A DNA stretch of 62,241 nt from a virus: positions 1 to 62,241 of IMG/VR virus record IMGVR_UViG_3300037485_001606, one strand, 5' to 3'. A program made the translations under genes and the position numbers. Of the stretch, positions 44,021-61,537 are shown one piece after another. The notes beneath the pieces were generated by a model. It saw only the letters and a list, made by a program, of their open reading frames with translations. It was not told where the DNA came from and did not search any database. Positions within the stretch are counted from its first letter, which is position 1; the number at the start of each line of letters is the position of its first letter.

Positions 44021-44350
44021 ATGGCAACAGTCTATATTGTTCAAGAGATGCCGAATCACGATCTGGCCCCTGCAATGAAGTACGGTGAGATGAAAGTCTT
44101 GCTTCCTCCGCATACACAGATCGCATTTAGCACTGCCCCCACCATACGAAGCTTGCGCCATAAACTGCGTAACTTCTCTGACGATGATTTCCTGCTTCTG
44201 GCAGGAGACCCCGTAGCAATAGGCTTGGCCTGCTCTATTGCTGTATTTTTTAATAGTGGCCGCTATACAGCGTTGAAGTGGGACCGCCGCGAACGTATGT
44301 ACATCCCTGTCAAAATTGACATCACCCAGAAAGGAGAAAGCGATGAGTAA
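44021..44350 (+). CDS. Hypothetical early protein
   Basis: 109 residues. Mixed alpha/beta with VYIVQEMPNHDLAPAMKYGE, SDDDFLLLAGDPVAIGLACS and a C-terminal VKIDITQKGESDE. Proteins with this DD-L-L-x-G-D-P pattern often start phage replication operons; the function is not known to me. First gene after the TTGACG/TACACT promoter, with a strong AAAGGA ribosome site. The 3' end overlaps the next gene by eight bases. Confidence 0.75.
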   Translation: MATVYIVQEMPNHDLAPAMKYGEMKVLLPPHTQIAFSTAPTIRSLRHKLRNFSDDDFLLLAGDPVAIGLACSIAVFFNSGRYTALKWDRRERMYIPVKIDITQKGESDE

Positions 44351-44900
44351 TTTAAATTCAATGTTCGAAGAGGACGCAGGTGCCCTGACCGTTAAGGATG
44401 AGGACCTGTCTTCAGTTGCAGCGTTGGCCAAGCGGGCCAAGATGCTGGAGAAAGAAATCGAAGAAGTCGAGTCCGTACTCAAAGAGCGCAAAGAACAACT
44501 GCGTAAGCTTGAGGAAGAGTCCATTCCCAATATGCTCAATGAGCTGGGCATGAAAGACTTCACCATGGCCGATGGCAGCAAGATCACAGTCAAACCCTTT
44601 TACTCTGCATCCATCAAGGAAGAGAACCGGGCTCAGGCTTATGAGTGGCTGCGTGACCATGGTTACGACGACATTATCAAGAATACCGTGTCTGTGCGTT
44701 TTGGTAGGGGAGAAGACCAATTGTGCGAGACGCTACTGAATCTGCTGCGTGAGCAAAGCTACCCTGTGGAGCAAGCGCAGAAGATCGAATCCCAGACTCT
44801 CAAGGCTTGGGTTCGTGAGCAAACGGAGCGCGGCAGCGCGTTCCCCTCTGAACTTTTTGGCGTCTATATCGGCCAAAAAGCGACTATTAAATCAGCCTAA
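44343..44900 (+). CDS. Coiled-coil replication-block protein
   Basis: 185 residues from the ATG at 44343, which has AAAGGAG eight bases upstream; an ATG at 44316 is less likely. Residues about 25-70 form a charged coiled coil (KMLEKEIEEVESVLKERKEQ). Then come MKDFTMADGSKITVK, SVRFGRGEDQ and TLKAWVREQTERG followed by FGVYIGQKA. It is common in environmental phage replication modules, but with no known activity. Co-transcribed with the next two genes. Confidence 0.75.
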   Translation: MSNLNSMFEEDAGALTVKDEDLSSVAALAKRAKMLEKEIEEVESVLKERKEQLRKLEEESIPNMLNELGMKDFTMADGSKITVKPFYSASIKEENRAQAYEWLRDHGYDDIIKNTVSVRFGRGEDQLCETLLNLLREQSYPVEQAQKIESQTLKAWVREQTERGSAFPSELFGVYIGQKATIKSA

Positions 44901-44913
44901 AGGAAATTGAATC

Positions 44914-45690
44914 ATGAGCAAGACACAAGTAGCAGTCCAAGAGACTAAGCAATACGCAGTTGCATTGGGCAACGTATTTGAAGATGACGCCAACATCGGT
45001 TTCGATGGCATGGGACAGGATGACTTTGCGCTTCCGTTCCTGCGCCTGTTGACCAACACCAGCCCAGAGGTAGGTGTGATGGATGGAGCCATGCCCGGCA
45101 TGATCATGAACACCGTTACTGGTGAGCTGTTCAACGGCAAAGAAGGCATCAGCGTGATCCCCGTGACCTATATTCGTCAGTACATTGAATGGGCACCACG
45201 TGGCTCGGGCAGTGGAGCACCTATCACGGTCTACCCCGCTACCTCTGACATTCTGAGCCGCACGCACCGCGAACCGGGCGACAACAAAGACTACTTGGAT
45301 AACGGTAATTACATTGAGAACACCGCCAATCACTACGTGATGGTGCTCAATGACGCAGGTATCCCTGAGCCCGCGCTCATCACCATGAAGTCCACTCAGC
45401 TTAAGAAGAGCCGCAAGTGGAACAGCATGCTGATGTCCACGAAGCTGATGGGCAAGAACGGTCCGTTCACGCCTCCCATGTACAGCCACATCTATCGCCT
45501 GTCCACACAAGCTGAGTCCAACGACAAAGGCAAGTGGTTTGGTTGGGAGATCGAAAAGGTTGGTGCCGTGGAAGACATGAATACTTATGCCGCTGCCAAA
45601 GCATTTGCATTACAGATTAACTCTGGCGAAGTGAAGGTCAAGCACGAACACGCTGAAGGCACTGTCGAATCAAGCGCTGCCCCGTTCTGA
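44914..45690 (+). CDS. Conserved replication-block protein, possible ssDNA-binding role
   Basis: 258 residues. Contains DDFALPFLRLLTNTSPEVG, a beta core with GISVIPVTYIRQYIEWAPR, NHYVMVLNDAGIPEPALITM, and KKSRKWNSMLM. The C-terminus is acidic-terminal and ends AAPF, a tail style common in single-stranded DNA-binding proteins. Position between an early coiled-coil gene and the primase fits a gp2.5-like job. The binding role is inference; I do not recognise an OB-fold signature with certainty. Confidence 0.7.
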   Translation: MSKTQVAVQETKQYAVALGNVFEDDANIGFDGMGQDDFALPFLRLLTNTSPEVGVMDGAMPGMIMNTVTGELFNGKEGISVIPVTYIRQYIEWAPRGSGSGAPITVYPATSDILSRTHREPGDNKDYLDNGNYIENTANHYVMVLNDAGIPEPALITMKSTQLKKSRKWNSMLMSTKLMGKNGPFTPPMYSHIYRLSTQAESNDKGKWFGWEIEKVGAVEDMNTYAAAKAFALQINSGEVKVKHEHAEGTVESSAAPF

Positions 45691-45789: not shown

Positions 45790-47322
45790 ATGACTGATAT
45801 CACCAGATTCAAAGCCATATTTAGCGGCCTCGACATCGCTTATGGCACCTATAGAATTAAATCGGAGCGTGGCGATGGTAAGCAGGCGGGACAAGCTACG
45901 GTGGTTCGTAAGCCGCCAACTGACGCCCTATGGGTTCAACATTTTGCTGGTGTGGACCCTTCCTTGGGAATTATTCCGATACGGTCTGACAACACTTGTA
46001 TCTGGGGCTGCATCGATATTGACCAGTACCCACTGGACCATAAAGGCTTGGTGGAAAAGGTTGCGCAGCTAAAGCTGCCAATGGTTGTTTGCCGTAGCAA
46101 ATCAGGAGGCGCACATGTGTTTTTATTTACTAAAGAGCCTGCGCCAGCACGTGACTTCCAAACGTACCTCAAGAATGCGGCTGCGCTCCTTGGTGAGGCT
46201 GGCCGAGAAATATTTCCCAAGCAAGCAGAGATACTTGTCGAGCGTGGAGACACCGGCAATTTCCTCAACCTGCCGTACTTTGGCGGTGATTCGGGGACGC
46301 GGTACGCGTTCAATGCCGATGGCTCAGCAGCAAGCCTTGAGGAGTTCTACGCGCTGCACGCGGCAAACGTACAAAGCCTTCCCCTTGACTTCCCTGAGCC
46401 GCCTAAGCAAGCAGAGAGCCCTATCAAAGATGGCCCGCCTTGCCTGCAGGCGCTTTGTGCGCAAGGGTTTCCAGAAGGCACCCGCAATAACGGATTATTC
46501 AACATTGGTGTCTATCTCAAACGCGCTCACCCCGGCGCGTGGGAAGACAGGATGGTTGAGTACAACCTCAAGTACGTTTCCCCTCCTCTCCCAAACAATG
46601 AAGTCCAGCTCATCATCAAGCAGGCAGGGAAGAAGGACTACCAGTACAAGTGCAAGGATGCCCCTCTCAACAGTTTTTGCAATTCTGGGCTGTGCCGTTC
46701 CCGCAAGTTTGGCATCGGTGCACACGCCCCTGATTCAGCGCAGATAGCCAGCCTGTCCAAGTACGCCAGTGACCCGCCCCTGTGGTTTCTGGATGTGAAC
46801 GGCAAGCGTGTCGAGCTGGAAACAGAGATGCTCTACAACCAAGCTGCTTTCCAAAAGGCCTGCCTCGAGAAAATCAATGTGGTGCCGCCTACCCTGCGCA
46901 AGCAGGACTGGGAGAACATGTTGAACGCCCTTTTGAAAGAGATGGTGGAGACTGAGCAAATCACCGTTGCATCGGAAGACACCAGCGTGGTTGGCCGCTT
47001 CATGGACCTCTTGGAAGAGTTTACGACCCATATGCAGCAGGCCTTGGCCCGCGAAGAGATGCTCATGGGCCGCCCATGGACCGATGAGGATGAAGCCAAG
47101 ACATACTTCCGGATCAAGGACCTTGACGCGCACTTGTTGCGTAATAACTTTAAGGCACTGACTGCTCCCAAGATGGCCCAGCGCCTGCGCGACATTGGCG
47201 GAGAGCCCATTAGTTTGTTTCTTAAAGGTAGAGCAGTCCGCTGCTGGCGCATTCCACGCTTTGGAAAGCAAGAAGCTCCGTTTGAAACACAAACGCAGCG
47301 CAAAGAAGGGAGTCCGTTTTGA
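45790..47322 (+). CDS. Archaeo-eukaryotic-type primase (PrimPol-like)
   Basis: 510 residues. AEP motifs: D-x-D in WGCIDIDQYPLDH (about 77-79), then VCRSKSGGAHVFLF (S-x-x-G-x-H) and a later FPKQAEILVERGDTGNFLNL. A Cys-rich zinc motif lies in KCKDAPLNSFCNSGLCRSRK (about 280-305). The helical C-terminus resembles primase C-terminal domains. It would start DNA synthesis for the family A polymerase downstream. Phage primases of this class replace DnaG-type enzymes. Confidence 0.85.
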   Translation: MTDITRFKAIFSGLDIAYGTYRIKSERGDGKQAGQATVVRKPPTDALWVQHFAGVDPSLGIIPIRSDNTCIWGCIDIDQYPLDHKGLVEKVAQLKLPMVVCRSKSGGAHVFLFTKEPAPARDFQTYLKNAAALLGEAGREIFPKQAEILVERGDTGNFLNLPYFGGDSGTRYAFNADGSAASLEEFYALHAANVQSLPLDFPEPPKQAESPIKDGPPCLQALCAQGFPEGTRNNGLFNIGVYLKRAHPGAWEDRMVEYNLKYVSPPLPNNEVQLIIKQAGKKDYQYKCKDAPLNSFCNSGLCRSRKFGIGAHAPDSAQIASLSKYASDPPLWFLDVNGKRVELETEMLYNQAAFQKACLEKINVVPPTLRKQDWENMLNALLKEMVETEQITVASEDTSVVGRFMDLLEEFTTHMQQALAREEMLMGRPWTDEDEAKTYFRIKDLDAHLLRNNFKALTAPKMAQRLRDIGGEPISLFLKGRAVRCWRIPRFGKQEAPFETQTQRKEGSPF

Positions 47323-52754: not shown

Positions 52755-53142
52755 TTTCCTCTTCTCGAATCACATCCTGCAGGTGGCCATGCATGCGCAC
52801 GGACATGTCGAATAGTTCGTTGATGGACGCCATCAGCTTGTTCTGGCGCTCGCGCCGCGTCTCCATCCAAAAGGACTTGCAGGTGGTCATCGAGCCCATG
52901 CGCAGCTTCAGGATGACTTTCGGGCCCTTGTCCTCTTCGTCCCCTTCATCCATCTCCGGGTCATACTTCATGTTGTTCATGCGAACCATGTAGACCACGC
53001 GGTCATACAGGTCAGAGACTGTCTGGGACAGGTACTCGGACCGCTCACGGCGGATGTCATTCATTTCCAGAGGAGGGATGACCACTTCTGCCTGCGCATC
53101 GAGTTCTTCAATGATGATGTGGATGTTGTCTTCAATCTTCAT
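52735..53142 (-). CDS. Charged hypothetical protein
   Basis: 135 residues from ATG 53142, which has GAAAGAACAGC upstream and overlaps the HTH gene by 11 bases. Longer readings lack a site. It opens MKIEDNIHIIIEELDAQAEV and has an acidic middle (PEMDEGDEEDKGP) and Met/Arg-rich C-terminal helices. No family recognised; position behind the repressor-like gene suggests a regulated accessory role. Confidence 0.65.
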   Translation of the reverse strand: MKIEDNIHIIIEELDAQAEVVIPPLEMNDIRRERSEYLSQTVSDLYDRVVYMVRMNNMKYDPEMDEGDEEDKGPKVILKLRMGSMTTCKSFWMETRRERQNKLMASINELFDMSVRMHGHLQDVIREEENDEEAK

Positions 53143-53386
53143 GCTGTTCTTTCGTTTCTGCGGTCTCCACCACGCCATAGATGTCCTCGTAGCTGACGCG
53201 GTGACCGCGGACCGCGGCTTCTGCAATCAGTTTGCGGGCACCGTCCGGCAGCATGGTCTGCTCGCGTAGTTCGTAGTGCCCCACGTTGCCTTGGGTGATG
53301 CCCAACATGTCAGCAAACTCTTGCTGGGTCATGCCCATGCGCTGGCGGATTTGCTTAAGTAGGTTGGTTTGCGGTAGTTCTTGCAT
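53132..53386 (-). CDS. Cro/CI-like HTH regulator
   Basis: 84 residues. A clear XRE-type HTH: LLKQIRQRMGMTQQEFADML, then GITQGNVGHYELREQTMLPD, with the Q-x-x-F-A-x-x-L-G-I-x-Q-x-x-V-x-x-Y-E pattern. Size fits a Cro-like dimeric repressor. It is the best candidate to bind the promoter palindromes in this genome. No integrase or CI partner is present, so it probably times early genes rather than lysogeny. Confidence 0.85.
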   Translation of the reverse strand: MQELPQTNLLKQIRQRMGMTQQEFADMLGITQGNVGHYELREQTMLPDGARKLIAEAAVRGHRVSYEDIYGVVETAETKEQHED

Positions 53387-57938: not shown

Positions 57939-58010
57939 TTGCGGCGCTGTTAATTTACCACTACAATAGTGGCACTGGTTTAAACCAGCAACCTAGAAAG
58001 GATAGAGAAA
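57939..58010 (+). promoter_or_regulatory. Promoter-hairpin cassette 1
   Basis: TTGCGG (57939-57944), 17-base spacer, TACAAT (57962-57967). The -10 sits in an inverted repeat CCACTA-CAA-TAGTGG. The leader carries the perfect palindrome CTGGTTTAAACCAG (57975-57988), then CAACC and the ribosome site GAAAGGATAGAG. Confidence 0.8.
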
Positions 58011-58712
58011 ATGTTAAAAACTGTAGCAGTAACCGCTAACCGTAAAACCGGACCTATCGCTGTCACTTATCGCAGTGGCACCCATGAAACCTATGGCACG
58101 TGTCCAACATCTTGTAAGCTTCACCCCAAAAGTGAAACCGGCACGACCTTAATTGACGTGGAATATATGGGCGCCGTGGCGGACGCGGTGCCCCGTAATG
58201 GCTTGGCTTGGACTTATTCCCACTTTGCCGCGGAAGCTTTACCGACACCTAGGCACGGAAAGACCGTTTTTAACGTATCTTGTGACACTATGGCGGAAGC
58301 AGTGCGGGCTATTGAGCTTGGCCGCCCTTCGGTTTTTGCAGCACCAAAAGAACTGGCCGGTTCTTTCCCGCTGGTGTTTCAGGGCACAAAATTTGTTCAA
58401 TGCCCTGCTGACTTGTCCGAATCGTTCACTTGCGCCCAGTGTGGTGGTGGCCGTCCACTATGCGCCCGTGGTGACCGCGATTACGTGGTGGTTTTTGTTG
58501 CTCATGGAACCGGTGCCAAGCGTGTAGGCTCGGAGCAGGGCGGCGGCTGTTATGCGGCCAGTGGTCCGACCGCGATTACGTGGCACAACACCAAAAAAAC
58601 CGGCCTAGATAATGATTCCGATGCCTTGCGTCGTTTTGCTCGCTCACTGCCGCCCGGCTCACTTCTACGCCATCATGTCGCTGGTGATATAGGGAAAGAG
58701 ACCAGAAAATGA
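58011..58712 (+). CDS. Cys-rich conserved phage protein (DUF7227-like)
   Basis: 233 residues. YGTCPTSCKLHPKSETG near the N-terminus, WTYSHFAAEALPTPRHGKTV, a central FNVSCDTMAEAV, and a C-terminal cluster FVQCPADLSESFTCAQCGGG with CAR. The Cys spacing suggests metal or Fe-S binding. I believe this family is catalogued as DUF7227; its function is unknown. It has its own promoter-hairpin cassette. The stop overlaps a 21-residue membrane peptide gene. Confidence 0.75.
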   Translation: MLKTVAVTANRKTGPIAVTYRSGTHETYGTCPTSCKLHPKSETGTTLIDVEYMGAVADAVPRNGLAWTYSHFAAEALPTPRHGKTVFNVSCDTMAEAVRAIELGRPSVFAAPKELAGSFPLVFQGTKFVQCPADLSESFTCAQCGGGRPLCARGDRDYVVVFVAHGTGAKRVGSEQGGGCYAASGPTAITWHNTKKTGLDNDSDALRRFARSLPPGSLLRHHVAGDIGKETRK

Positions 58713-58774
58713 TATTTTTGGCTTTGGGTGTTTTTCTTTTACTGTGGTGGCTAATTGATTTATTTGATAAATAA
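58709..58774 (+). CDS. 21-residue membrane peptide
   Basis: Reads MIFLALGVFLLLWWLIDLFD plus K, a single transmembrane helix with acidic tail. The ATG overlaps the previous stop (ATGA), giving translational coupling, and no separate ribosome site is needed. Such tiny membrane peptides are easily missed. No family recognised. Its composition is far from random for this region. Confidence 0.55.
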   Translation: MIFLALGVFLLLWWLIDLFDK

Positions 58775-58798
58775 ACAGCACCGCTATTTAAATTGGTA

Positions 58799-58847
58799 TA
58801 TAATTTATTCACCGGGATAAACCGGCAACCCTGAAAGGATAGAGAAA
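58799..58847 (+). promoter_or_regulatory. Promoter-hairpin cassette 2
   Basis: TATAAT (58799-58804) in an A/T-rich run; no good -35. A leader stem of CCGG (58812-58815) with CCGG (58822-58825) around GATAAA, then CAACC and GAAAGGATAGAG before the ATG at 58848. Confidence 0.65.
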
Positions 58848-59807
58848 ATGGCACATATGATTGACACCACCACCGGCACGGCCGCTATTGCTTACGCTGG
58901 CATAACCCCATGGCATGGCTTAGGCCAAGCGTTGACGCCGGACGCCTCAATCGAGACGTGGACACGCGAAGCCGGACTAAATTACACCGTGCAGGAATCA
59001 CCGGTATTGTTTCAAACCGATGCAGCTTCAGTGCCTGAGGAATTCAAGGGGCGAAAGGTCCTACACCGTAGCGACACTGGCGGAGCATTGGCCGTGGTAT
59101 CGGACGGGTACCGCGTAGTGCAGCCTTCGGACGTTATGGGGTTTTTTGGGAAACTGGTAGAGCTGGGCGGCTTTCAGATGGAAACTGCAGGCGTTCTAAG
59201 TCATGGCCGCCGGGTTTGGGCGCTGGCCAAGGTCAATCAGGGCGCGGACATTGTCGAAGGTGACACCGTCCGGCCTTATGTTTTGTTGGGCACATCCTAC
59301 GACGGCACCATGGCCACAGTGGCAAAATTTACCAGTGTGCGCGTGGTGTGCAATAACACCATAACGGCCGCCCTAGGCCGTGAAAACGCGGGAACTGTCC
59401 GCGTTTTACATTCCGAGCGATTCAACCCGGACGCCGTCCGTTTAGAGCTGGGCATTGTGGGCGATAGTTGGGAGCGTTTTTTGGTGCAATCTCGCCGCTT
59501 GTCCACCGTGGCCATGCCAAAAGCCGACGCGGACGCTTTTGTCACTGCGCTATTGACGCCTTACCATAGTTCAAAAATGGAGCTTAATGACACTCGGGGA
59601 TATCGGCGCATCATGGAGCTGTTTAATGGCCAAGCTATGGGCGCAAGCATTCCGGGTGTCGCCGGTACGCGCTGGGCTATGCTTAACGCGGTGACTGAAC
59701 TAGTGGACCATGAGCGCGGCCGGTCCGCAAATACCAGACTTGAGTCGGCATGGTTTGGAACTGGTGCCGCGCTGAAGAATAAGGCGCTTGAACTACTTAG
59801 TGCTTAA
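58848..59807 (+). CDS. DUF932 / TIGR03299-like phage-plasmid protein
   Basis: 319 residues. PWHGLGQALTPDASIETW near the N-terminus, SDGYRVVQPSDVMGFFGKLV, MATVAKFTSVRVVCNNTITA and NAVTELVDHERGR match the DUF932 family of phage and plasmid proteins. Members are often highly expressed early proteins; the function is unknown, with links suggested to replication or anti-defence. It has its own promoter-hairpin cassette. Confidence 0.9.
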   Translation: MAHMIDTTTGTAAIAYAGITPWHGLGQALTPDASIETWTREAGLNYTVQESPVLFQTDAASVPEEFKGRKVLHRSDTGGALAVVSDGYRVVQPSDVMGFFGKLVELGGFQMETAGVLSHGRRVWALAKVNQGADIVEGDTVRPYVLLGTSYDGTMATVAKFTSVRVVCNNTITAALGRENAGTVRVLHSERFNPDAVRLELGIVGDSWERFLVQSRRLSTVAMPKADADAFVTALLTPYHSSKMELNDTRGYRRIMELFNGQAMGASIPGVAGTRWAMLNAVTELVDHERGRSANTRLESAWFGTGAALKNKALELLSA

Positions 59808-59854
59808 CTATCGGATAACGGGAACCGATAGGTAATGCCTATCGAGGGGGAACT
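59808..59854 (+). promoter_or_regulatory. Switch-like alternative hairpins
   Basis: Arm A CTATCGG (59808-59814) can pair with CCGATAG (59825-59831), which overlaps CGATAGG (59826-59832), which can pair with CCTATCG (59838-59844). The two stems exclude each other. The second one lies just before the ribosome site GAGGGGG of the next gene. Attenuator-like; inferred. Confidence 0.5.
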
Positions 59855-60091
59855 ATGCAAAAAATGCATATCCCGCCCGGTTATGTTCACATTAGTAAAC
59901 CAGCCCCGCGGTCCCTGTCGCTTGACGCCTTGGACGTGGTGCGTGGTGCGTGGTCCGCGGCCCGTGGGCCGCGCTGGGCGTGGCTTGCAGCGTTAGTGAC
60001 CACTAACTTATCGTGGCGCGTGGTCTACTATCGATGGCGGGCCATCGATAGTCAAAATCAATCGGGCCGTGCCGCGGCCCGATTGATATAA
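59855..60091 (+). CDS. Hypothetical protein in palindrome-rich DNA
   Basis: 78 residues: MQKMHIPPGYVHISKPAPRS, a hydrophobic patch WAWLAALVTTNLSWRVVYY, and a basic end. GAGGGGGAACT precedes the ATG. The coding DNA carries at least four perfect inverted repeats, and the stop overlaps the next -10, so much of it may be selected as DNA or RNA structure rather than protein. Moderate doubt that it is translated. Confidence 0.42.
   Translation: MQKMHIPPGYVHISKPAPRSLSLDALDVVRGAWSAARGPRWAWLAALVTTNLSWRVVYYRWRAIDSQNQSGRAAARLI
59957..60086. repeat. Cluster of four perfect inverted repeats
   Basis: GCGGCCC/GGGCCGC (59957-59972), GTTAGTG/CACTAAC (59992-60007), CTATCGATGGC/GCCATCGATAG (60028-60051), and TCAATCGGGCCG/CGGCCCGATTGA (60058-60086, five-base loop). 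The first three have a two-base centre. They lead directly into the next promoter. Confidence 0.85.
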
Positions 60092-60142
60092 TAGTGGCAC
60101 TGGTGCAGGGCCCTGCACCGGGCAACCTGAAAGGATAGAGAA
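60084..60142 (+). promoter_or_regulatory. Promoter-hairpin cassette 3
   Basis: Extended -10 TGATATAAT (60084-60092). Leader palindrome GGTGCAGGG/CCCTGCACC (60102-60119), then CAACC and GAAAGGATAGAG. Flanking letters AATAGTGGCACTGG are the same as in cassette 1, while the stem sequence differs. Confidence 0.8.
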
Positions 60143-60346
60143 ATGAATACTGTTTCAATTGGTTTTTACCGCGAAGACGGGGATTTTGCCGTGCTCGCCG
60201 CCCTAAATAACAATGACGAACATCTGCCCGATGATGCTTTTTTGTCGCTTATCGGAATGCTGCACGCGAGCTACAAAGTGTTAATTGATTCGCCCGTGAT
60301 TGTTGTTGACCGTCAAGATATCCCCGATTACGTAACCATTGAATAG
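60143..60346 (+). CDS. Small hypothetical early protein
   Basis: 67 residues: VSIGFYREDGDFAVLAALNN, then DDAFLSLIGMLHASYKVLID and IVVDRQDIPDYVTIE. Compact alpha/beta and acidic. It has its own promoter-hairpin cassette and a strong AAAGGA site. No family recognised. Confidence 0.7.
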   Translation: MNTVSIGFYREDGDFAVLAALNNNDEHLPDDAFLSLIGMLHASYKVLIDSPVIVVDRQDIPDYVTIE

Positions 60347-60428
60347 TTGACATGAGCCCACGGGCTCATGCTATAATAGTCTCACTGCTACCGGCCGGTA
60401 GCAGTCAACCCTTAGAAAGAATAGCATC
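60347..60428 (+). promoter_or_regulatory. Promoter-hairpin cassette 4 with operator-like spacer
   Basis: TTGACA (60347-60352), 19-base spacer, TATAAT (60372-60377) with extended TG. The spacer holds ATGAGCCC/GGGCTCAT (60352-60369, centre AC). Leader palindrome ACTGCTACCGG/CCGGTAGCAGT (60384-60405), then CAACC and AGAAAGAATAG. Confidence 0.88.
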
Positions 60429-60773
60429 ATGACAATCGAAACAGCAACCCCTACCAGCGCAGAGACTTTGGCCGCATTATTTGACGCGATGATTGACGCC
60501 GTGGCGGTGCGCGTGATGGTGCAGGTTCAAGCCAAAATCGAGGGCCTAGGTGCCAGCATGGATGAGGAAAAGATTAATTTAGTAATCGACCAGAAAATTG
60601 CAGACTTCGCGTACAACGACTTCGAGACCAAAGTTAACGACTGGGCAGAAGGCAATCTACAACAACAATTTGATAAGAACGTATTGGTCAACGTGGGCGA
60701 TATGGACGGCATTCACGACGCGGTAGTTGAAGTAGTGAGTGACATGAGTTTTGAGATACGCGTGAGCCGATAA
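60429..60773 (+). CDS. Small acidic helical hypothetical protein
   Basis: 114 residues, acidic and helical: ETLAALFDAMIDAVAVRVMV, then KINLVIDQKIADFAYNDFET and MDGIHDAVVEVVSDMSFEIR. No known family. Cassette-driven with the strongest-looking promoter of the group. Probably an abundant early protein; possible anti-host factor by position only. Confidence 0.7.
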   Translation: MTIETATPTSAETLAALFDAMIDAVAVRVMVQVQAKIEGLGASMDEEKINLVIDQKIADFAYNDFETKVNDWAEGNLQQQFDKNVLVNVGDMDGIHDAVVEVVSDMSFEIRVSR

Positions 60774-60778
60774 AGTAG

Positions 60779-60860
60779 TTGACATGAGCCCACGGGCTCA
60801 TGCTATAATAGTCCCACTGCTACTAACCGGTAGCAGTTAACCCTTAGAAAGAATAGCATC
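60779..60860 (+). promoter_or_regulatory. Promoter-hairpin cassette 5 with operator-like spacer
   Basis: TTGACA (60779-60784), 19-base spacer, TATAAT (60804-60809). Same spacer palindrome ATGAGCCC/GGGCTCAT (60784-60801). Leader stem ACTGCTAC/GTAGCAGT (60816-60837), loop TAACCG, then AACCC and AGAAAGAATAG. Near-duplicate of cassette 4 with changes confined mainly to the hairpin loop. Confidence 0.88.
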
Positions 60861-61130
60861 ATGACCAAAATCATCACCATCGACAGCAACCGTTATGCCT
60901 TACCAGAAGGCATGAGCTCCAAGGACCTTCAGGCTCTGGCCGGGTTCCTCGTCACTCTAACCAGAGTAGAGTACGAATATTGCTACACCGATGACAGCGC
61001 ATACTTTGCAAGCAGTGGAGCTCAGGTCAGTATCGGAACCCAGGAGCTGGTAACCAAGGCAGAAGCCAAAGCCCAGTCCACTGCAGGACGCACAGCATAC
61101 GAGGCAAAGAAGGCAACCGAACAGGCGTGA
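60861..61130 (+). CDS. Small hypothetical early protein
   Basis: 89 residues. KIITIDSNRYALPEGMSSKD, then LQALAGFLVTLTRVEYEYCY and a Lys/Ala-rich helical end. The first 60 residues look like a small alpha/beta domain found in other phage early genes. No function known. The stop codon lies inside the next extended -10. Confidence 0.72.
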   Translation: MTKIITIDSNRYALPEGMSSKDLQALAGFLVTLTRVEYEYCYTDDSAYFASSGAQVSIGTQELVTKAEAKAQSTAGRTAYEAKKATEQA

Positions 61131-61183
61131 TATAATAGCGGTACTGGTAGCATCCGCTACCAGTACAACCTAGAAAGAATAGC
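61128..61183 (+). promoter_or_regulatory. Promoter-hairpin cassette 6
   Basis: Extended -10 TGATATAAT (61128-61136), no clear -35. Leader stem GTACTGGTAGC/GCTACCAGTAC (61141-61166, loop ATCC), then CAACC and AGAAAGAATAG before the ATG. Confidence 0.82.
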
Positions 61184-61387
61184 ATGAACCCACTTCACTA
61201 TCAGGCCAAGGTACTGGCTTCCGCCCTCCGTCTTTATGCACGTACAGGCATGAAGGCCAACTCAGCATATACACCCAGCGCGATGCTGGCCACTGCTGGC
61301 CGAATCACCGGCCAAGTGTTTAAACGGGGTCAGCATCTGGTAGCGGCAGATGCTCTAGCCAACTGGGTACGCACCCAGCACGACTAG
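61184..61387 (+). CDS. Small basic hypothetical protein
   Basis: 67 residues, basic: NPLHYQAKVLASALRLYART, then YTPSAMLATAGRITGQVFKR and AADALANWVRTQHD. Helical; might bind nucleic acid. Driven by cassette 6. Last gene before the palindrome array and terL. No family recognised. Confidence 0.7.
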   Translation: MNPLHYQAKVLASALRLYARTGMKANSAYTPSAMLATAGRITGQVFKRGQHLVAADALANWVRTQHD

Positions 61388-61398
61388 GCGAAGACTAC

Positions 61399-61537
61399 TA
61401 GGGCCACGGCCCTATCACCCTATCCTTACATCACGCTGACTGCTAGGGCCCACGGGCCCTAGCACGGCTCCCTTACGCTAGGCTGACGGCCCCGTCAGCC
61501 TATACCCAGTAGCTGGTGACCGGTAAGCCGGTCACCA
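61399..61537. repeat. Array of four different perfect palindromes
   Basis: TAGGGCC/GGCCCTA (61399-61414), TGCTAGGGCCC/GGGCCCTAGCA (61441-61464), TAGGCTGACGG/CCGTCAGCCTA (61479-61502), TGGTGACCGG/CCGGTCACCA (61514-61537). Centres are spaced about 46, 38 and 35 bases apart. The first three have a two-base centre, the last a four-base loop. None is followed by a T-run. Confidence 0.9.

Follow-up and report, generated by a model that had tools for sequence, protein, structure and literature searches.

A conserved hairpin of freely varying sequence at the predicted transcription start of single-gene phage leaders

We find that a hairpin-bearing leader is a real, conserved device that precedes single rightward genes in a widespread, uncultured and mostly aquatic group of phages. 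Each copy combines a -10 hexamer, a hairpin, (C/T)AACC, a GAAAGRATAG ribosome-binding site and an ATG. Comparison of related sequences gives good support to the view that the structure of the hairpin – which is based at or next to the predicted transcription start – is conserved and under selection at the RNA level.

The window that we analyzed is a 62,241-base virus record (IMG/VR IMGVR_UViG_3300037485_001606) with the gene content of a tailed phage. It encodes a terminase small subunit at 56.8 kb and a terminase large subunit from 61.7 kb on that continues at the window start (the part at 16-1098 was identified by search and the part at 61.7 kb from sequence reading only). Six rightward cassettes, at 57.96-61.18 kb, sit in the interval between the two subunits, and among the six cassette genes only the DUF7227 gene and the DUF932 gene have Pfam matches above cut-off. 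As the original prediction had claimed, all six leaders with the shared layout are present:

57962-58010, plus strand: leader 1, of the DUF7227 gene at 58011-58712; -10 TACAAT 57962-57967; predicted +1 A 57974; hairpin CTGGTTTAAACCAG 57975-57988; CAACC; GAAAGGATAG 57996-58005
58799-58847, plus strand: leader 2, of the DUF932 gene at 58848-59807; -10 TATAAT 58799-58804; predicted +1 A 58811; hairpin CCGGGATAAACCGG 58812-58825; CAACC; GAAAGGATAG 58833-58842
60087-60142, plus strand: leader 3, of the gene at 60143-60346; extended -10 TGATATAAT with hexamer TATAAT 60087-60092; predicted +1 A 60099; hairpin CTGGTGCAGGGCCCTGCACCGG 60100-60121; CAACC; GAAAGGATAG 60129-60138
60372-60428, plus strand: leader 4, of the gene at 60429-60773; -10 TATAAT 60372-60377; predicted +1 A 60384; hairpin ACTGCTACCGGCCGGTAGCAGT 60384-60405; CAACC; GAAAGAATAG 60415-60424
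60804-60860, plus strand: leader 5, of the gene at 60861-61130; -10 TATAAT 60804-60809; predicted +1 A 60816; hairpin ACTGCTACTAACCGGTAGCAGT 60816-60837; TAACC; GAAAGAATAG 60847-60856
61131-61183, plus strand: leader 6, of the gene at 61184-61387; -10 TATAAT 61131-61136, adjoining the preceding stop; predicted +1 A 61143; palindrome 61141-61166, with the transcribed stem from 61143; CAACC; GAAAGAATAG 61173-61182

The -10 reads TATAATAG in four of the six leaders and is preceded by TGn in four of the six, in agreement with the earlier description of one usual, often extended, sequence. That description placed the hairpin 8-12 bases past the -10; the stems actually start ~5-8 bases after the hexamer, which is the predicted start site. 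It also had CAACC following the hairpin, which is true of five leaders but not of the one at 60.8 kb (TAACC), and it linked the leaders at 44.0 kb and 56.2 kb to the family. These two do have the GAAAGGATAG site in common, but they lack a hairpin and are therefore not members. At 44021-45690, three genes match Pfam families named for phage Pam3 gp32, gp33 and gp34, and they are followed by an AEP-TOTE primase domain protein at 45790-47322.

We scanned both strands of the window with a descriptor (TATAAT with at most one mismatch and a stem of at least 7 at the right offset) and obtained three forward sites, where a random sequence of 62 kb would give 0.28 over both strands. On the reverse strand, three further matches are palindromes that lie upstream of the -10, read backward. 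All six leaders fold; their z-scores, for leaders 1-6, are -2.6, -1.75, -2.2, -3.1, -3.0 and -5.5, and Rfam gave no matches within the window at gathering score. Because the two short-stem leaders are weak alone by their z-scores, it is comparison with relatives that carries the case.

As relatives we used ~230 IMG/VR loci from DUF932 searches (four queries) and one pattern scan, and collected leaders via GAAAG-type motifs or DUF932 starts, so that cassettes with other motifs are under-counted. A hairpin of -6 kcal/mol or better, first paired at the predicted +1 or +2, is present in 215 of the 261 distinct rightward leaders and in 52 after shuffling – a comparison in which related sequences are not independent and the shuffle statistics ignore relatedness. 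With DUF932 excluded, the hairpin is found in 164 of 190. Leftward leaders that share the -10 and GAAAGRATAG have it in only 1 of 20, which ties the hairpin to the gene set and not to the promoter type or the ribosome site. The 138 distinct DUF932 leaders all have folds of at most -4 kcal/mol; of these, 131 are first paired at the predicted +1 or +2, compared with 24% of shuffles.

Among annotated relatives the nearest is Phage DSL-LC04, assembled from a lake metagenome; the leader of its DUF932 gene differs in ribosome-site motif but folds a hairpin at the same offset. Pelagibacter phage HTVC023P has the same layout of terS, single genes and terL, with hairpins in some leaders. In the window, four G/C-rich palindromes occupy ~140 bases (61399-61537) between the last cassette and the terminase large subunit, and the DSL-LC04 stretch that matches this segment is likewise rich in GGCCCGTGGGCC-like repeats.

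The letters of the stem are free. More than 60 stems occur above DUF932 (63 distinct and perfectly paired) and pairing is retained in relatives, which bears out the claim that stems differ while pairing is kept. Across 203 distinct hairpins compared, we found no constant stem or loop sequence; loops span 3-8 bases, stems 5-12 pairs, and the hairpin usually ends 5-10 bases ahead of the GAAAG motif.

MAFFT alignment of the variable-length hairpins gave no consensus fold and was replaced by an equal-length hairpin set, whose members were chosen for pairing, which makes its score partly a product of construction. In the nearly gap-free orthologue set (A3, 11 leaders), 6 of the 10 pairs are changed on both sides, and 95.5% of cells are paired versus 86.2% in shuffles. 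The covariation score is 0.513 versus 0.304 in shuffles, and none of 500 shuffles reaches it, though the shuffles ignore relatedness. The compensatory changes that the covariation check proposed with the original prediction called for are thus present. Double changes alone do not separate a hairpin from a DNA operator, however: were the +1 palindrome the binding site of a dimeric phage regulator, the symmetric changes would be half-site changes. Palindromes that surround a start site are a classical form of operator, and the window encodes an HTH_3 protein. Since double changes fit a dimer's operator too, the RNA case rests on the pairing edge, the strand bias and the change of stems within genomes.

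For the edge we picked stems without using the eight positions that directly follow the -10 (n=168). Pairing is 0.90 at +2 (0.54 shuffled), 0.63 at +1 (0.29) and 0.35 at -1 (0.22), and is at chance from -2 outward. The base at -1 is C or T in 84% and the base at +1 is A or G in 75%, which places a C/T-A/G start dinucleotide at this edge. Some stems begin 1-2 bases before the predicted +1 – hence the excess at -1 – and a model based on RNA only copes with these if the start varies. Stem mismatches are G-U in 54 cases versus A-C in 27, or 33:17 once related contexts are collapsed (one-sided p=0.016); the ratio for random inverted repeats of the same loci is 668:563. The sense strand also folds better than the antisense (p=0.0013). 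This strand bias is supportive of RNA but not decisive. Finally, the +1 stem differs between cassettes of one genome (e.g., L336 and L349) in which the palindrome upstream of the -10 is the same or one base off. Together with the variable loop and stem, these observations make an operator at +1 improbable. Selection on RNA structure, as originally proposed, is upheld by the double changes, the excess of G-U over A-C and the stop of pairing at the predicted +1.

The original prediction of a single hairpin per leader overlooked the second, upstream palindrome. The following features of the window relate to it:

60057-60087, no strand assigned: leader 3, upstream palindrome ATCAATCGGGCC...GGCCCGATTGAT, which runs up to the -10
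60351-60370, no strand assigned: leader 4, upstream palindrome CATGAGCCCACGGGCTCATG, located after TTGACA and before the -10
60783-60802, no strand assigned: leader 5, the same upstream palindrome as in leader 4
53132-53386, minus strand: small HTH_3 (Cro/CI-type) protein of 84 aa, putative binder of the upstream palindromes

Leaders 4 and 5 have a perfect TTGACA at 19-base spacing, with the palindrome between -35 and -10. Of the 158 leaders in our first set, 36 have an inverted repeat of at least 7 pairs immediately before the -10, with a gap of 0-1 base in 33; a larger set yielded 54 distinct upstream palindromes, nearly all perfect and without strand bias. Within a genome the upstream palindrome is repeated, near-identical or keeps its outer half-site, whereas the +1 hairpins differ: in L349 GCGGACAGAATGTCCGC occurs twice as the upstream palindrome, and in L015 CACGGG-N8-CCCGTG occurs three times. 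Over eleven within-genome pairs, outer-arm identity is 0.82 versus 0.65. The leader 3 palindrome, which is unlike those of leaders 4 and 5, is an exception to this sameness. Because its sequence is kept within a genome, this second palindrome, which in some leaders stands between -35 and -10, is best read as a DNA operator. The HTH_3 protein is a candidate only for the factor that would bind the upstream palindromes (e.g., the CATGAGCCC-ACGGGCTCATG dyad). On the minus strand at 60372 and 60804, TATAATA reads as TATTATA, a reverse -10-like site facing the upstream palindromes; bidirectional transcription from these sites is possible.

Palindromes that flank the -10 on both sides, as in some leaders, might suggest hairpins that form in DNA (as a cruciform or a single strand) and recruit polymerase, in the manner of N4 virion-RNAP or Frpo promoters. 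N4 hairpins, DNA elements around -11 that are read by the virion polymerase, are likewise promoter-linked and tolerate change of unconserved stem letters if the hairpin is kept (PMC4496689). The hairpins described here start at +1 or +2, downstream of the start and beside a sigma-70 -10, and are not centered near -11, so we rejected an N4-type promoter. Frpo/ssi single-strand promoters also form hairpins, drive genes expressed on entry, and have -35 and -10 within the paired structure (PMC11541004). We rejected this identity as well, as the -10 here is a consensus hexamer between the palindromes and outside both stems. The strand asymmetry would be unexpected for a DNA structure, and no RNA polymerase was found in a search without a positive control: the T7-like RNA polymerase profile PF00940 had no match, nor did it match in control genomes. 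We regard hairpin-forming DNA as very improbable.

The role that fits best is protection of the mRNA 5' end: it suits a stem based at +1 or +2 and is the only reading considered that requires this position. According to a review, a single-stranded 5' end is required by both RppH and RNase E, and mRNA is stabilized by 5' structure (PMC3997798). The B. subtilis pyrophosphohydrolase acts only if two or more 5' bases are unpaired; a stem from +1 or +2, with +1 predicted from the -10, would leave none or one. We consider it probable, though by no means assured, that the 5'-terminal hairpin shields short single-gene mRNAs from 5'-end-dependent decay. Each rightward gene between the two terminase subunits would be a separate expression cassette transcribed by the host sigma-70 RNA polymerase, and its first transcribed segment would be a hairpin based at mRNA nucleotide 1 or 2, followed by a short unpaired linker and a free ribosome-binding site. 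Such a hairpin would act as a 5' clamp, its single unpaired 5' base at most hindering RppH and 5'-end-dependent RNase E, and would prolong the life of a short mRNA while the ribosome site is kept open. Some observations count against this reading: inactivation of RppH touches only ~10% of E. coli mRNAs (PMC3997798), and about one-fifth of rightward leaders are without a hairpin.

In the window folds the linker, ribosome site and ATG are essentially unpaired, with weak 2-3 bp contacts in some, so the leader is not a ribosome-site switch. This openness, and the usual stop of the hairpin short of the GAAAG motif, would also be found if the hairpin were a translation insulator that absorbs upstream sequence and leaves linker and ribosome site open for any gene, with stability secondary. 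Nothing about an insulator would call for pairing to begin at +1 or +2, as it does here, and leftward leaders use the same ribosome site without a hairpin; we think this explanation unlikely. An intrinsic terminator or attenuator was also rejected: (C/T)AACC and no T run follows the hairpin, and a terminator scan lists no leader hairpin.

Of the roles first proposed for the hairpin, 5'-end protection is thus the one that we retain in conditional form, while we do not favor the landing site for a phage factor, since neither stem nor loop sequence is constant. Recognition by structure is still conceivable: a phage or host RNA-binding protein might use the 5' hairpin in antitermination or in the control of decay, and the hairpin is indeed specific to a gene set and near universal there. 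With 203 distinct hairpins lacking a common sequence and no candidate protein identified, we rate this prospect as slim.

The proposed 5'-end protection has precedents in the E. coli ompA and papA 5' stem-loops (cited in PMC3997798), which stand at the transcript 5' end with a free ribosome site downstream. On predicted starts, the leaders have both features, and by analogy we infer that the hairpin stabilizes mRNA in the manner of an ompA-type stem-loop. Those stem-loops lead individual genes; what would be new is a standard part, free in stem sequence, that is repeated gene by gene ahead of many unrelated phage genes. The SAS/ESAS repeats of cluster K mycobacteriophages (PMC3203893) similarly stand ahead of many non-structural genes and combine an inverted repeat with a conserved motif, downstream of it, that resembles a ribosome site. 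Their 17-bp repeat is conserved in sequence, and the authors of that study saw little to support an mRNA hairpin, whereas the stems described here vary with pairing kept, and motif and hosts differ. We rejected identity with SAS/ESAS, as the GGGATAGGAGCCC-type 13-bp repeat is absent and the motif is GAAAGRATAG. We found no description of the device in open-licence papers.

A pattern scan of genome contigs for a host returned 120 stretches, evidently mostly chance because the pattern was too loose, and yielded no host. The 16S tail UCCUUUCU occurs in many betaproteobacteria, and AGAAAGGA in the GAAAGGATAG sites would pair with it; a check of this tail among seven genomes gave no match.

It is possible, though somewhat doubtful, that the leaders embody a grammar for promoters shared by the whole phage group. 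Structure alone would be under selection in the segment transcribed first, a cap-like hairpin at the 5' end added gene by gene, and many cassettes would also have a genome-specific operator dyad just before the -10; a single module would then set both regulation and message lifetime. With their position set by the predicted transcription start, more than 200 distinct natural 5' hairpins form a library for relating 5'-end pairing to mRNA decay, and the hairpin-plus-operator unit may be reusable as an expression part in laboratory strains. In uncultured phages, the hairpins would point to transcription starts and to a group of accessory genes with one promoter each.
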